Positions 13,787 through 28,287 of a stretch of 64,000 nucleotides of DNA are shown here, piece after piece; within the stretch, counting starts at the first letter, position 1, and every line of letters begins with the position of its first letter. This DNA comes from Campylobacterales bacterium. Its GTDB lineage: Bacteria; Campylobacterota; Campylobacteria; Campylobacterales; Sulfurimonadaceae. Under the pieces are notes generated by a model. It was not told the origin of the DNA, did not search any database, and saw nothing but the letters and a program-made list of their open reading frames with translations. Made by a program: the position numbers and the translations under genes. The DNA is taken from contig JAPLGO010000001.1 of assembly GCA_026390115.1 (NCBI GenBank), positions 160,978 to 224,977 of the forward strand. Direction: 5' to 3'.

Positions 13787-15922
13787 ATGTTAAAATCACT
13801 TTATTCTGGCATCTCAGGGCTGCAATCACATCAAGTTGCAATGGATGTTGAATCAAATAATATTGCCAATGTAAACACAACAGGTTTTAAATACTCTCGT
13901 GCTAACTTTTCAGATCTGTTGGCTCAGACTCAAGCAATCGCTACAGCTCCTCAGGGTTCATTAGGCGGTAAAAATTCCGTACAGATAGGGCTAGGCTCTA
14001 CTATAAGCTCTATGACACGCATATTCTCTCAAGGTTCAATTCAAAATTCTGACAAAAATACGGATGTTGCTATTCAAGGGGATGGATTTTTTATAATCTC
14101 TCCTGATAACGGCAGCACATACAAATATACCAGAGCGGGCGACTTTAAATTTGACGCCGGCGGAAATTTTGTTGATAATAACGGTTTTATCGCGCAAGGT
14201 TGGCTTAGAGATAGTGCAACCGGCAAAGTGGATTCAACCAATCCTATTAAAAGCATAAATATAGCACCTGGACTCACAACCCCTGCCAGTCCTAGCCATG
14301 AAGTTGTACTAAAAGCAAACCTTGACTCAGGAACACAAGTTGAGACTTTTTCTCCGGCCTATGAAGTTGCTTCAGGTACTCCGCCCAGCATAACGACTCC
14401 TGGTTCCAGTGACGGAATAGATGCGGCAGGAAATCCTGTACCATCAGGCGATGTAGGAGTTATGTTTAATGAATCCGGAGCAGCTTTCAGTCTTCAAAAA
14501 GATCAAGGTGTCTGGGCTTCATTTTTAAGTTCTCAAAAAAATGGTGTCGGTGTAGTTCAAGGCGGTGCCGGAGAGCTGAATTTAACATTTACACTTGATG
14601 ACGGGACAACTAAACTGATTACAACAACCGGTGGGGACCCGTTAAACACAGCAGCAGTAAATGGAAATAGATTCACAGCAGCAATTAATGCCCAAACTTC
14701 TGTAACCGGAGTAACAGCTACATACGATATAGCCAATAATAAAATTAATTTAACAAATACTAACAGTAGCGATTCAACATCGCATAATATAAATGTAACT
14801 GCCGGTAATGCAAACAGCGGTGTTACATCCGGTTCAGTTATAACTGCTTATAAATACCAGTATGACCCAGCGGTTGTCTCAACGGCAACAGGGATTGATA
14901 AAAAATTTACTACCCTCTCTGATTTACGATATGCGATGGAGAAGCAGGCACGTGCTGATGGCGGTGGCGTTGCCGGTGCCGGTAATAACATAGAGATTAA
15001 AGTAAATGCGCAAGGGAAGTTTGAGATAACAAATCCTGGCGGTGGTGCTAATGATTATGATATGAATCTAAAGGTTACGGCATACTCTGCTGTGGGTATT
15101 ACCGATAATACGCGTTTCAGTAGAAATATGGAAGCAATGAATGCTGTTTTACCGGCTGGAAGTGGCGGTAAAGCGTATTCTCAAGGTTTTAATGCTGCAA
15201 CACACTCTAGCAGTATAGATGTTTATGATTCGCTTGGCTCTAAGCATACACTACGAATGGAGTTTAGAAAGACAGCAGTTGATGTAGCAACAGGCAGTAC
15301 ATGGGACATGAAAATTACTGTTCCGGAACCGGCTACCATTAATACAATTGCACCCTACAATGAAAAAACCGGTTCAATTCGTTTTAATAATGATGGTTCA
15401 TTATCAACCTATAATCCGCCAAATGTTTCATTTTCAGGAAATAACGGTTCAGCACCAAACCAGCAGGTAAGTCTCAGTTTCGGTACTCCCAATTCATTTG
15501 ACGGTATGACAAGTTTTGACTCTACATCGTCAACATCGGGTATATCTCAAGATGGTTATACAGGTGGGGATTTAGTAGGAATTAGAATAGATCAAAGCGG
15601 TACTTTAATTGGTTCATTTTCAAATGGTCGCTCATTTGGTCTTGCTCAGATTGCCATGGCCAAATTTACAAATAATGAAGGGCTTGGAACTGAAGGGGGA
15701 AATGTATTTACCCAGTCTGCAAACTCCGGTGAACCGATTATCGGTACAGCGGCAACTGCAGGGCGTGGATTTATCCAATCTTCCGCATTGGAAGCTTCCA
15801 ATGTGGATTTATCTCGTGCCTTGACACAGCTTATTATAATTCAAAGAGGATATCAGGCAAACGGTAAAACAATTACCACTGCGGATCAGCTTCTTCAAAC
15901 TTTAATCGGATTGAAAAACTAG
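13787..15922 (+). CDS. flgE: Flagellar hook protein FlgE (711 aa)
   Basis: LYSGISGLQSHQVAMDVESNNIANVNTTGFKYSR… and C-terminal SNVDLSRALTQLIIIQRGYQANGKTITTADQLLQTLIGLKN. Confidence 0.95.
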   Translation: MLKSLYSGISGLQSHQVAMDVESNNIANVNTTGFKYSRANFSDLLAQTQAIATAPQGSLGGKNSVQIGLGSTISSMTRIFSQGSIQNSDKNTDVAIQGDGFFIISPDNGSTYKYTRAGDFKFDAGGNFVDNNGFIAQGWLRDSATGKVDSTNPIKSINIAPGLTTPASPSHEVVLKANLDSGTQVETFSPAYEVASGTPPSITTPGSSDGIDAAGNPVPSGDVGVMFNESGAAFSLQKDQGVWASFLSSQKNGVGVVQGGAGELNLTFTLDDGTTKLITTTGGDPLNTAAVNGNRFTAAINAQTSVTGVTATYDIANNKINLTNTNSSDSTSHNINVTAGNANSGVTSGSVITAYKYQYDPAVVSTATGIDKKFTTLSDLRYAMEKQARADGGGVAGAGNNIEIKVNAQGKFEITNPGGGANDYDMNLKVTAYSAVGITDNTRFSRNMEAMNAVLPAGSGGKAYSQGFNAATHSSSIDVYDSLGSKHTLRMEFRKTAVDVATGSTWDMKITVPEPATINTIAPYNEKTGSIRFNNDGSLSTYNPPNVSFSGNNGSAPNQQVSLSFGTPNSFDGMTSFDSTSSTSGISQDGYTGGDLVGIRIDQSGTLIGSFSNGRSFGLAQIAMAKFTNNEGLGTEGGNVFTQSANSGEPIIGTAATAGRGFIQSSALEASNVDLSRALTQLIIIQRGYQANGKTITTADQLLQTLIGLKN

Positions 15923-22972: not shown

Positions 22973-23060
22973 GGACAGTTGGGAGAGCGGTTGAATCTAC
23001 TACCTTGGAAAGGTAGCGTAGGGAAACCTACCGAGGGTTCGAACCCCTCACTGTCCACCA
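22973..23060 (+). tRNA. tRNA-Ser (anticodon GGA), encoded CCA
   Basis: Acceptor GGACAGT/ACTGTCC, anticodon arm CTACC-TTGGAAA-GGTAG, long variable arm, T arm GGGTTCGAACCCC, CCA end. Confidence 0.96.
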
Positions 23061-23063
23061 GAA
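23044..23063 (+). repeat. Left attachment repeat within the tRNA-Ser 3' end
   Basis: CCCCTCACTGTCCACCAGAA, identical to 28138-28157. Confidence 0.92.
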
Positions 23064-23163
23064 GAACAAAAATGACTTCAAACACCCTAAAATAGGGACT
23101 AACACCAGCACAAAACATATAAAGAATCAACTGTATGACACTTCTAACAAAAACTATGCACCT

Positions 23164-24338
23164 TTGAGAATTTACAAAGTTCAAGATATTTACTATTACA
23201 GAAGAAAGATTAATAAAAAACAGTATAGAATTAGTTTGAAAACAAAGGATTTAAAGATTGCTTTAAATCGTAGAAAACTTTTGAACCTGCTCAATGATGG
23301 AGAATTTATGTATACATTTTCAAAAGGTGATTTTAAAATCATTTTTGAATACGACACTATGGAAGAATATAGAGAAATGTATAAAGATGCAGAAGAAGCT
23401 TATAAAAACGCAATGCTCTATAATTATGAAAGAGTTCAAACAGCTTTATCACAAGTTGATACTTCTCCTCAATCTGCTGAACACTCTATAACTTTTGAAG
23501 AATTAAAGAGTAAATTTCTTGTTATGAAAAATAAGTCAAATAAAGTTGGGGACAGTAGCTATAAGCAATATTATTCTATTTTTACCAAATTAATTAAATA
23601 TTTCAAAGACAGAAATATACATTCTCTTAACATAGAAGATTTTGAAGGATTTAGAGACTATTTAATCAGCTCTGGTCTGGTTGCCAAAACTATCAATGGA
23701 ATAATGCGAAATGTAAATCAATTTATAAAATTTGGTGTTAATTATAAATATCTCAAAGAAAATAATATTGAGGGCTTAGAGACATTAAAAGAAATAACAG
23801 TAAAAAAAGAAAATTTCACTGACGAAGAAATAAACGCTGTTCTAAATTATGAAGATATAGAACCAAATTATAAAATGGCGTTTAAAATAGCGATTTACAC
23901 AGGTATGAGAGTATCAGAAATTATCAATATTGAAAATGAAAACATAAGAGAAAAAGATAGCATTACATACATAGATTTACCTAAATCAAAGACAGATGCA
24001 GGGATTAGAGATATTCCTATTTGTGACAAACTTTTAAGCGATATAAAAAATACAAAATTTCCACTATTTCCAGAAAAACTCAAAGCGCTGTTCAAAAAGC
24101 AATATTGCGAAAACTTTATAAAATTCTTGATGTTGAAGGCGAAAAAGTATTTCACACATTTAGAGCCACTTTCATAGGCAAGGCTGTAAATACTTTCCCT
24201 GAAAAACTTCCCATTATTCAAGAAATAGTTGGACATAGCAAAAGTGATAATAGTTCTTTGACGATTGATACATACGCAAAAGGTTTTAACTTAAAGCTAA
24301 AAAAAGAAATTGTTGACGCGATAGAATATACTTCATAA
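23164..24338 (+). pseudogene. Tyrosine recombinase/integrase, frameshifted between the catalytic-Arg and HxxR regions
   Basis: Frame 1 (23164-24177) has YTGMRVSEI; frame 2 (24105-24338) has FHTFRATF, VGHSK and DTYAKGF; frames meet at the A-run 24074-24078. Confidence 0.85.
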
Positions 24339-24434
24339 TATTATTCGCTTATCTCTAAGGATGAACAAGTTCAAAATATCAGTGATTGATTGATTTACAA
24401 TAGCTACGCTAGGCTAAATCAATCAATTGCCAAT

Positions 24435-25301
24435 CTATATATCAATATCAAAGCTACTTTTTCTCTTAGTGCTTAAAATAACATCTTTGATATTTTTATT
24501 TACAAGCTCCATATTCTTATCAAACTTCTCCTGATTGTTCTCTTCAAGAGCTTTATCCATGCGATTTAGATAGATTAATACTCTTTTTTCAACCTTCTCT
24601 TCAAGGTCTTCTAAAATAGTGTCAATACTGCTTTTATACTCATTTAGTGCATCTCTTTGCTTGTCTAATTTAGATTTATTAATTGGTATTTTTTTCTTTG
24701 CCGTTGGTTTATTGGTTTTTATAACATATTCATTTATATCATAGCCTTTTGCTCTTGCTACTTCAATTGCGATATTTTTCAATAAAAATGAGTATTTCTT
24801 TTTAGACAAATCAAGTTTGACATCTTTGATATACTCTGACAGCACAAAATTAAACTGCATCATACTACCTTGCTCTTGCTTGTGTATGTTGTAGAAATTA
24901 TTGTCCTGTATATGGTTAATTATGTCTTCTCTTTTCATATCAAGATTATTAGCATCGATTAGGTTAGTAAAGAACTTTAACAATATAGACTGAATGGCGC
25001 TTTTCTCTTTTTTGTCGTCTTTGAAAGAAAAAGGAAAGTTTATTGTGAAAGAATGCCCATATTTGTTTGGTGGTTTCCCACCAACACCTTTTAATAGTTG
25101 TTTAGTATGTGCAACTTCAAGAGGAATGCACATATTTAAAAATACCTTTTGCATAGATTGAAAGTTTCTTATTGAATGACCATCTTTTATGTGATTTTTG
25201 TGATTATTATTGGTTAAATACCTTAAATAAGTCAATAACCCATTCTTGCCAGATTTAATCGTCTTTGCGATGGTTATCCAGTTTTTTAGCTTCCTGCTCA
25301 T
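24435..25301 (-). CDS. Element-encoded protein of unknown function, 288 aa; faint relaxase/Rep-like pattern only
   Basis: ORF overlapping the upstream 94-aa ORF; 'IAKTIKSGKNGLLTYLRYLTN' and 'GSMMQFNFVLSEYI' look vaguely like mobilization proteins but lack an HxH motif. Confidence 0.6.
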   Translation of the reverse strand: MSRKLKNWITIAKTIKSGKNGLLTYLRYLTNNNHKNHIKDGHSIRNFQSMQKVFLNMCIPLEVAHTKQLLKGVGGKPPNKYGHSFTINFPFSFKDDKKEKSAIQSILLKFFTNLIDANNLDMKREDIINHIQDNNFYNIHKQEQGSMMQFNFVLSEYIKDVKLDLSKKKYSFLLKNIAIEVARAKGYDINEYVIKTNKPTAKKKIPINKSKLDKQRDALNEYKSSIDTILEDLEEKVEKRVLIYLNRMDKALEENNQEKFDKNMELVNKNIKDVILSTKRKSSFDIDI

Positions 25302-25582
25302 TTGTTGAAGTCTTTTAGCTCTTGTTCAAGCTGTTTTAACTCTAATTTTTTTTGTTTAATCAAATCTTTAAAATATACAATTTTATTATCTTTGATTTTT
25401 ACAAATATTTTAAGCATATGTATATTTGTTAATGTATGACTAATTTTTTCTATGCATTTGATGCTTTCACACTCTTGCATTTGCTCAATCAATTCAGCAA
25501 GCTCTTTTAGCTCCTCTTTATTAATACTATCAATACTACTCGTTAATCCGTCAATCTCTTCTTTTATATTTTCATATTTCAT
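25298..25582 (-). CDS. Small coiled-coil protein, 94 aa, translationally coupled to the 288-aa ORF
   Basis: Stop/start overlap at 25298-25301; Lys/Glu/Leu-rich. Confidence 0.6.
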   Translation of the reverse strand: MKYENIKEEIDGLTSSIDSINKEELKELAELIEQMQECESIKCIEKISHTLTNIHMLKIFVKIKDNKIVYFKDLIKQKKLELKQLEQELKDFNK

Positions 25583-25845
25583 TTTTTACACCTTTAAAAG
25601 TTTTATAACTCTTAATTATGCAAATGAAAAAAAATAATAGGAATAGATATGACTTTTAAAAAGGCTTATTCAAGATAGGAGAACCGTTGGTTATCTCTTC
25701 TTGCAAAGGGAAAACCCTTTTGAAACCCTTTTTTATACATATTTCTTAAAACATTAAATTTAATAAAATGTTGTTTTCACTTCTTTAAATATAATAAAAA
25801 ATGATTATTTAGGCGCTCATTTTTTCATTACGTCCCAAATAAGCA

Positions 25846-26793
25846 TTAATCGCCATATGTTGTGGCATTTAAAATATTTTCAATATCTATAGAGAATTTA
25901 TCTAGCATTAAAAAGCGTTTAGTGTACATAGAGCGCTTGTTTGATTTAATTTCATCAAAACTTTTACGATTTTCGACAATCGGTAAACTGAAAAAATATC
26001 CATTAAAAATACCACCTGATTCAATCCAGTATATATCATAATCTGCTTTGAACTTTTCAGCATGTCTTGGCTTACGTGAGTGTCCAGCATGATATTTTGT
26101 TGAAATCGCATTAAGGTAATCAACTTTGAGTGTTTTGCATATTTGCCTAGTAATAAATATCATGAAATCTCGTGGTCGTACACCGTGCATAGCTTTTGTA
26201 ATGTTCCTAACCACTCTCTGTGAATATTCACTTGGACTTGGTCCTTGCATTCCGCCTATTATTGCATGCAACTTACCCTCTATTTCTGCAAACAAAAAAG
26301 TAACCGAATAAATTCTTTGGTTCTGGGCATCCAAAAAAGATAGTATAAGCTCACCTTCTTTCTCGAAAGAACCATCATAAAATAGCTTAACAATGAATTT
26401 ATCGTCTCCAAACTCAATATCTAGTAAATTAATACCTGATCTACTATACATAGCGTCTATAGACTCTTCTTTGAATTTATTTGCTATAAATCGATAATGA
26501 GATGTAATATAGTTTATTTTCTCGTAAATGCTAAATTCATATACAAGATAAGGATGGAATGGCTTACTGTATATTCTTGGGTGAGTTGAAATAATAAGAT
26601 CATAAACGGGGTGGGTATGGGTATCAAAAAAATCAAATAATTTTGTTATGAATTTTTTGTAAATTATAGATCTAGCGATAAACTTTATTTTTCTCTTAAA
26701 AGAATATTCGCAACTATTTGCTATTTGGTTTGCTTTGTATATAATCAACTGCTTTAAGCTCAACTTTTCGTTAAATCTATTAAAAATCGCCAA
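25846..26793 (-). CDS. VirK/YbjX (DUF535) family protein
   Basis: IEGKLHAIIGGMQGPSPSEYSQRVVRNITKAMHGVRPRDFMIF and YLNAISTKYHAGHSRK typical of DUF535. Confidence 0.88.
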   Translation of the reverse strand: MAIFNRFNEKLSLKQLIIYKANQIANSCEYSFKRKIKFIARSIIYKKFITKLFDFFDTHTHPVYDLIISTHPRIYSKPFHPYLVYEFSIYEKINYITSHYRFIANKFKEESIDAMYSRSGINLLDIEFGDDKFIVKLFYDGSFEKEGELILSFLDAQNQRIYSVTFLFAEIEGKLHAIIGGMQGPSPSEYSQRVVRNITKAMHGVRPRDFMIFITRQICKTLKVDYLNAISTKYHAGHSRKPRHAEKFKADYDIYWIESGGIFNGYFFSLPIVENRKSFDEIKSNKRSMYTKRFLMLDKFSIDIENILNATTYGD

Positions 26794-27084
26794 TTTTTAA
26801 AATCTTTGAAGTATAACCACATTGAGCCAAAATTTAAATCTGATGTCTAACGAACTCTAAAATTTGGCAGTTAAATTAAAAAAAGTTACATTCTGAAACT
26901 TAAACCACCTCTTGTTTTTTTACTGTTTTATTTGAAAATTTCACCCCAAACTTATAAATATCTGAATTGATTATTCTTGATTCTTTTTTCTATAAATATT
27001 GTATATATACGAACTGCCTCCCAAATGTTTTAAAACTTTTTCGCAAAAAAAATAGCAAAAAACAAAAAAACAAAATTTTATTTC

Positions 27085-27970
27085 TATAATTATTTAGTAA
27101 GTGAAAGATAAATATATCTTTCACTTACTAAATAACCTTTTTGTGTTTTTTCTACAGCTGGAAGTTTGAGATTTTACAACCCATGAATTATTATTAAAGG
27201 ACGTCAGAAGCGTTTTAATAATAATTTCCCTTATTATTGTCAATGTAAAATCTCACAATAAACTAAAAAAAACACCTTCTACGAAAGTATGAGCGTCTAA
27301 ACCTTATCTAAGTTGATTTATCAATATGATAAGAGCAAACTAATAGTTTAGAAAAAAGACTTAGCAAGGACAAGAGACCCTTAGTTAAGCCCCCTGCTTC
27401 TGACCTCATTTTTAATGAGAGGGGTTTAGGCTATCTTGTTTGAGTTAGAAATAATACAAAAATCGGCGAAAGACTATCCGCAGATAAAAATCCAAAAATC
27501 AACATTTTAAGATTACTCAAATATTATTCTTGTATTTTATATTTTTATGTATAAAATACACGCTTGAAAAAAAAGAATATATGTGACGGACACTCAATGA
27601 TACAATATCATTTAGTATAATATAGATACCATCTTACAACAATTTAAGAAATTGTTGTAGGGCTATTTATGCTCAAAAGCCTAAATCCACAATATTGTTA
27701 TATTATATTTCCATTTTTATTAAATTGTATCATTATGTCAAATAACCCATTAAAGAAAAAAAGAAATTATGAGAGTTTGTAAAAAAGTTAGAACGTAAGT
27801 TATTACTTTTTTACAAATTTTTAGTTTAAAATTACGCAGTAATTGAAAAATAAAAACCCAACAAAAAAAATCAAGCCAACGGCGAATTCAAAAAATAAAA
27901 AAATAATTTTAAAATTAAAAAAGCCAAGAGGCTATTTTATGCCTGCCGGAAGCTATTGAATAAAATAAAT
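27085..27970 (+). ncRNA. Candidate large structured RNA region (unclassified)
   Basis: No convincing ORF; at least 15 perfect or near-perfect helices of 6-21 bp, many nested; GAAA and GUAA tetraloops; G-U extensions favour the plus strand. Confidence 0.5.
27090..27135. repeat. Perfect inverted repeat, 21-bp arms, 4-nt loop
   Basis: TTATTTAGTAAGTGAAAGATA-AATA-TATCTTTCACTTACTAAATAA. Confidence 0.95.
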
Positions 27971-28065
27971 ATTTAAATAGTCAATCATACAGTTTAGCCA
28001 CAAATTAAGTTAAATCGTTTTAAGATGATGCTAGAAAAGAACTATGATACTAAGGACATAAAACT

Positions 28066-28287
28066 ATGACACTTTCACTGTCTGACGATGATATAAAATC
28101 CCTAATTTCAGGGGTTATAGAGGGTTTAGTCAATGTCCCCCTCACTGTCCACCAGAAACGCAATAAATCCCAAAAAAATCGTACTTTCAAGGGTATCAAT
28201 AGAACATTTTTGAAACAAAATGCAAAATATTTGTTTAAAATCAAAAATTCCTTTTACATCTCTTTAAGATATAAAAAAAGGTGCTAA
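28066..28287 (+). CDS. ORF across the right att site; probable detached 5' portion of the integrase gene
   Basis: ATG with AAGGA RBS; codons 1-24 are inside the element, then the att core in the same frame as the integrase ORF at the left end. Confidence 0.5.
   Translation: MTLSLSDDDIKSLISGVIEGLVNVPLTVHQKRNKSQKNRTFKGINRTFLKQNAKYLFKIKNSFYISLRYKKRC
28138..28157 (+). repeat. Right attachment repeat
   Basis: CCCCTCACTGTCCACCAGAA, identical to 23044-23063. Confidence 0.92.

Follow-up and report, generated by a model that had tools for sequence, protein, structure and literature searches.

A tRNA-gene element family in Campylobacterota with an integrase gene that carries its own attachment site and appears to be split on integration

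Introduction

When an integrase gene lies directly behind a tRNA gene without a start codon suited to its full length, and a well-placed start codon stands in the same reading frame at the far end of the same element, the question arises whether integration itself has cut the gene in two. We met this arrangement in a stretch of 64,000 nucleotides from a Campylobacterales genome (the whole stretch is called the window here), for which a reading made from the sequence alone had proposed that the gene is partitioned as in archaeal viruses of the SSV type. In the SSV-type (type I, "suicidal") integrases of archaea, such as those of SSV1/SSV2, pTN3 and pT26-2, the recombination site lies within int, and integration, often at tRNA genes, leaves two parts, int(N) and int(C), of which int(C) contains the catalytic domain (PMC8371274). 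A review of 2021 describes suicidal integrases as exclusively archaeal (PMC8371274). Self-disrupting integrases have hitherto counted as peculiar to archaea, and accounts of how they evolved draw on archaeal data only. Our analysis makes it very likely that the window holds an integrative element of about 5.1 kb with attP inside its tyrosine integrase gene, which is split on integration, full-length Int being made only from the circle.

A divided integrase gene behind tRNA-Ser(GGA)

The element is bounded by two copies of the repeat CCCCTCACTGTCCACCAGAA, at 23044-23063 and 28138-28157, whose exact length is 20 bp, with no extension to the left. Both copies were found where the sequence-only reading had placed them, and the tRNA-Ser that it had seen upstream of the left one was located by ARAGORN (Table 1). 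Its description of the two ends also held: an ATG at 28066 with AAGGA upstream stands 24 codons ahead of the right repeat, and the left integrase frame is already open within the tRNA gene and stays so as far as LRIYKVQD and beyond it. The sole start candidate that it had named on the left, TTG 23164, indeed has no ribosome-binding site and is also unconserved.

Table 1 Features of the element in the window
Feature	Position	Strand	Basis
tRNA-Ser(GGA), target gene; attB in its 3' end, whole after integration	22973..23060	+	ARAGORN
Left att core (attL side), 20-bp identity to 28138-28157	23044..23063	+	Repeat comparison
Putative attP-encoded int linker (P' side), in frame with core and body, without a start codon suiting full-length Int	23064..23163	+	Frame open in 25/25 integrases
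Putative P'-arm arm-type repeat TATGACAC, partner TATGCACC at 23155; codes YDT..NYA	23134..23141	+	Repeat search
int(C): arm-binding domain, core-binding domain, first part of catalytic domain (TGMRVSE)	23164..24075	+	
Conserved internal start codon, Shine-Dalgarno GGAG at 23299-23302; candidate short-integrase start	23308..23310	+	15/15 core homologs
One-base frameshift site (A-run) in int(C)	24074..24078	+	Frame open in G082, G185, G246, G386 and others
Remaining catalytic domain (HTFR...GHS...DTY), shifted frame	24079..24338	+	
Element ORF, 288 aa, no family match	24435..25301	-	
Element ORF, 94 aa, no family match	25298..25582	-	
DUF535 (PF04393) cargo gene	25846..26793	-	Pfam domain match
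Putative distal P-arm arm-type repeat TATGATAC	28043..28050	+	Repeat search
Putative proximal P-arm repeat TATGACAC, encloses int start codon ATG 28066-28068	28065..28072	+	Repeat search
int(N): 24 codons MTLSLSDDDIKSLISGVIEGLVNV, AAGGA at 28053-28057	28066..28137	+	
Right att core (attR side)	28138..28157	+	Repeat comparison

Joining the two repeats reproduced the translation quoted across the junction, but what had been called one continuous ORF ends at 24177, before the HxxR...H...Y residues. The frame that contains TGMRVSE stops at this point, with a one-base shift in the A-run, while the catalytic residues HTFR, GHS and DTY sit in another frame (24105-24338); the integrase homologs are open across this A-run. 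Either the window copy is broken or the shift is a sequencing error, and because of the frameshift it is probably dead and the window's own element immobile. Other broken copies of int occur in G275, G463 and G554 and on contig C33 of the window's own genome. The latter is a second copy of the same integrase type (G000:C33:42956-43799; L075, L098), and the stretch read around it holds no tRNA.

The integrase body from LRIYKVQD onward is a complete integrase with arm-binding, core-binding and catalytic domains. The homolog in G082 matches PF00589 and PF13102, a match to the phrog_1 integrase was obtained with E 9.5e-38, and the R...HxxR...H...Y residues of tyrosine recombinases are present in the window, divided by the frameshift. 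The archaeal domain Phage_integr_3 (PF16795) was not matched, the Pfam hits being to other integrase domains. A structure model was poor (mean pLDDT 59) and was used for secondary structure only.

The split is conserved among related elements

Among 228 genomes of the same family, four close homologs were found, all directly after tRNA-Ser or tRNA-Asn and in the same direction. Wider searches of Campylobacterota gave tRNA-Ser (GGA, GCU, UGA) and tRNA-Asn as targets, and tRNA-Phe in a distant branch. When about 85,000 species genomes were scanned for the close family, seven loci came up, each with a Campylobacterota label (Sulfuricurvum, Sulfurimonas, Nitratifractor, Sulfurospirillaceae and others). 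The elements range from 4.3 to 21.3 kb.

Both ends could be compared in eleven elements, namely the window's and those in G082, G246, G386, G499, G463, G085, G275, G300, G059 and G366. In all eleven, the int frame at the right end holds an ORF with ATG and Shine-Dalgarno sequence that continues without a stop into the right att. In ten of them no frame but that of int has such a start at a distance of more than two codons; the exception is G300, where int(N) has 8 codons and a second frame offers a rival of 7. Two further elements from an integration hot spot, G406 and G246b, show the same in-frame split, which brings the count to 13 of 13, although these share ancestry within subclades and represent fewer than 13 independent events. 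At the left end, all 13 integrases come in frame out of the tRNA 3' end without a start codon suited to the full-length protein, and at the far end int(N) brings an ATG and ribosome-binding site in the same frame ahead of the second att copy.

Between the tRNA 3' end and the arm domain, the int frame is free of stops in all 25 integrases compared, whereas the two shifted frames are open in 2/25 and 0/25. The partition that the sequence-only reading had likened to SSV survived the comparison, with out-of-frame or stop-containing joins in none of the 13 two-ended elements. The tRNA 3' end is read in different frames by different subclades (FESLAVRH, NPSLPA, PSSLP, SNPVSGAT, SEISHH), and the right-end ORF is always in the matching frame. 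The int(N) peptides are alike within subclades, for example MIQSLSAKNVEALESRI, MTPSLSAKSVEALESRI and MILSLSAKDLESL. In contrast, Campylobacter-type integrases at the same tRNA-Ser genes begin at an ATG about 145-158 nt past the tRNA, with the frame closed before the tRNA, and such an open frame is also lacking in two elements of the same hot spot whose integrases are reversed. This conserved arrangement in relatives rules out a chance origin of the in-frame right-end start in the window, and the comparison strongly supports the split anatomy, as read from sequence, as real and conserved. A single origin of the split integrases is compatible with the tree without being established by it (2 changes, p-AU 0.17).

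The family also leaves the traces of integration at tRNA genes: the tRNA is restored at one end, its displaced 3' fragment lies at the other, and an empty site exists in relatives at the tRNA-Ser(GGA) locus of G386, which is another locus than the window's. There the flank halves lie 21.3 kb apart in G386, where the site is occupied, while the joined flanks match as one continuous stretch in G424, G376, G288, G415 and G356. A flank search for the window's own locus gave only relatives of about 65-71% identity, none of which spans the site. No intact unsplit int was found in plasmid, phage or IMG/VR records (PLSDB, INPHARED and IMG/VR were searched), and we therefore infer the circular form of the gene. 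Three weak matches in IMG/VR were considered as circular forms and rejected, as they have no tRNA nearby and look like ordinary integrases.

The attachment site appears to lie within the coding sequence

When the circle junctions are written out, direct repeats flank the core, and this holds for all of the first eleven elements. In most of the close group, TATGATAC-type words stand on the P side with a spacing of about 21-22 nt and recur on the P' side; other words are CTGCTATGACGACTTTT in G499, GTCCAAC in G366, G406 and G246b, TTTACAAC in G300 and AACCACA in G059. Taken singly, the repeats were matched by 0/1000 shuffles in G246, G386 and G499, and by 204/1000 in the worst case, G085. They look like arm-type integrase sites, and the proximal one on the P side encloses the start codon of int in the close group. 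As such repeats flank the core, the whole attP would lie within the 5' part of int, so that about the first 65 codons of the gene would be translated attP.

Selection on the linker was mixed. The pair G300/G519 differs by 8 synonymous and 2 nonsynonymous changes (dN/dS 0.05), while two other close pairs gave 0 synonymous to 2 nonsynonymous and 1.5 to 9.5. This fits a DNA constraint on attP as well as a coding constraint.

Proposed mechanism

The preferred reading brings together the anatomy of the element, its conservation, the two-sided arm-type repeats and the empty sites at one related locus. In the circle, int would begin at ATG 28066; its frame would cross the P arm, then the core, which is a copy of the tRNA 3' end, then the P' arm, and would go on into the arm-binding, core-binding and catalytic parts of the integrase. 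After recombination of this core with tRNA-Ser(GGA), int(N), with the ribosome-binding site, the start codon and about 24 codons, would stand at the right end. The int(C) body would follow the tRNA at the left end and have no start that suits the full-length protein. If full-length Int comes only from the circle, integration would turn off the full-length enzyme, which would favour staying integrated and make the reaction self-limiting, like that of the suicidal integrases of archaea. Excision would restore the whole gene; int would accordingly be expected to be expressed from the circle, to lose activity on integration and to regain it on excision.

The "off" state may be incomplete. Because a conserved internal start could let integrated copies make a short integrase, integration may remove the full-length form only and not all integrase. 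The SSV-like reading stands in this modified form: the split itself is supported, but the window copy is also frameshifted, and the internal start may leave part of the integrase expressible.

The internal start and other readings

Just after the arm domain, an internal start codon with a Shine-Dalgarno match of at least 4 bases is present in 15 of 15 core homologs but at only 9 of 137 other in-frame start codons, and GAG is favoured at the internal Shine-Dalgarno codons (19/26 vs 94/429 elsewhere), both counts being taken without regard to the kinship of the sequences. The start is GTG or TTG in three homologs, which thus retain a start at this place, and ATG in the remaining core homologs. 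These features raise the tentative possibility of a two-form switch, in which the circle makes long and short Int and the integrated state keeps the short form alone, transcribed from the tRNA side, with a role in excision or regulation. No terminator between the tRNA and int(C) was seen in the window, and the int bodies are still open in most integrated copies, as such a switch would have it. Lambda-type integrases need their arm-binding domain for excision, and the short form would be made without it, which speaks against the switch; so do the weaker Shine-Dalgarno matches in the wider clade, where the internal ATG is mostly kept. A bolder form of the idea seems rather doubtful to us: that this is a bacterial family in which attP encodes the N-terminus of Int and integration exchanges isoforms, the long Int, made only from the circle with its start in an arm site, serving integration, and the short Int being kept afterwards for another task such as control of excision.

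An ordinary integrase that starts after the att core, at TTG 23164 or ATG 23308, with a merely coincidental in-frame ORF at the right end, is very improbable. Such a TTG does exist, and the body from LRIYKVQD would by itself be a full integrase, but this reading must pass over the 13 of 13 in-frame right ends, the 25 of 25 open linkers, the lack of conservation and of a ribosome-binding site at the TTG, and the different behaviour of the canonical integrases used as controls. The comparative data refute it as stated, with the exception of the internal start.

It is likewise very improbable that int(N) is a separate small gene for a leader or excisionase-like peptide, in frame by chance. It has its own ribosome-binding site, and a TATAAT-like box lies 25-42 nt upstream of it in several elements (in the window the sigma-70 promoter is a weak match only and overlaps an arm site), but in no element does its frame stop before or within the att core, and it is always the frame of int despite the subclade-specific frames of the tRNA end. 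The notion that the window element is a decayed relic and the split a by-product of decay, to which the frameshift and the further broken copies lend some colour, is refuted for the family by the same split with open int bodies in G082, G085, G246, G386, G499, G300, G059, G366 and G406 and is highly implausible, although decay is still likely where the mobility of the window copy is concerned.

Comparison with known systems

As far as could be checked in open-access papers, a split integrase has not been described in bacteria. The 13 elements share with the SSV type an attP within int and an in-frame split on integration. They differ in their bacterial host, in the internal start that may keep part of int expressible and in their general integrase domains, which are not PF16795; the two are alike in working, but the present family stands outside the archaeal one and is not homologous to it.

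Coding sequence itself is divided here, whereas in ICEclc the promoter alone is displaced. Circularisation of ICEclc brings Pcirc from one end of the element to a place upstream of intB13 at the other. The position of Pcirc for intB13 is 102,729 (PMC2892462). The integrases of Mx8 and SSV have been noted to extend across attP (PMC4383910), and in the Myxococcus phage Mx8 (IntP/IntR) integration swaps the 3' end of int while the enzyme stays active (PMC6070905). Mx8 thus shares with the present elements a bacterial tyrosine integrase gene that spans attP and is changed by integration (PMC4383910, PMC6070905), but there the C-terminus is altered, whereas here the 5' end with start codon and ribosome-binding site is separated. 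In the integration-dependent immunity of mycobacteriophage BPs, attP also lies within a coding gene and integration changes the protein made (PMC4557955); that gene is a repressor with a trimmed C-terminus, and attP is not in int.

The presence of this design in many elements of a bacterial clade that is not homologous to the archaeal family suggests that it evolved more than once, and hosts that are easier to work with could now be used to test it. The design is relevant to how an element commits itself to integration without a repressor or a separate directionality factor, to how such elements ever leave, and to how one stretch of DNA can serve at once as attachment site, binding array and protein code. 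Split integrases are likely to be misannotated by gene callers, with starts placed too late.

Neighbouring insertions and element content

Within the genus of G386 (L141-L150), some genomes have an empty tRNA-Ser(GGA) attB, and in others the same site is filled by split-int elements or by ordinary elements with reversed int. A third att copy lies 1.5-2 kb past the right end at the loci of G085 (L038/L039/L090) and G246 (L077), which suggests tandem or nested insertions. A homolog on a Nitratifractor contig (L042:4808) has a tRNA 3' fragment in front of it and neither the whole tRNA nor an upstream int(N), as if it had inserted at a displaced tRNA fragment. Host-side DNA past the right att often contains a motif like CCCCTATTTTAGGCACTTTCAA, which resembles int linker DNA (for example at 14579 and 16102 of the oriented G246 locus). 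The DNA to the right of the window's attR was considered as a decayed int(C) of an older tandem element, and this was unsupported (6.4 bits, against up to 10.8 for shuffles).

In the window's element, the roughly 1.2 kb at 26800-28065 contains no convincing genes and has a perfect 21-bp inverted repeat (27090-27110/27115-27135); this stretch could be a replication or transfer origin. No replication gene was recognised on this element, while those in G082 and G085 carry RepL. These two also encode a second tyrosine-recombinase-like protein on the int(N) side (L035:8041-8922 and L038:16007-16867), with the motifs R...HDFRYDYA and HDYRYQFA...Y and without a library hit. Beyond integration genes, the elements carry varied cargo: DUF535 in the window, a DNA methyltransferase in G300 and, in G275 (L083:7768-11769), a CBASS-like defence operon composed of a phospholipase effector, an oligonucleotide cyclase and E1-E2 and JAB proteins.
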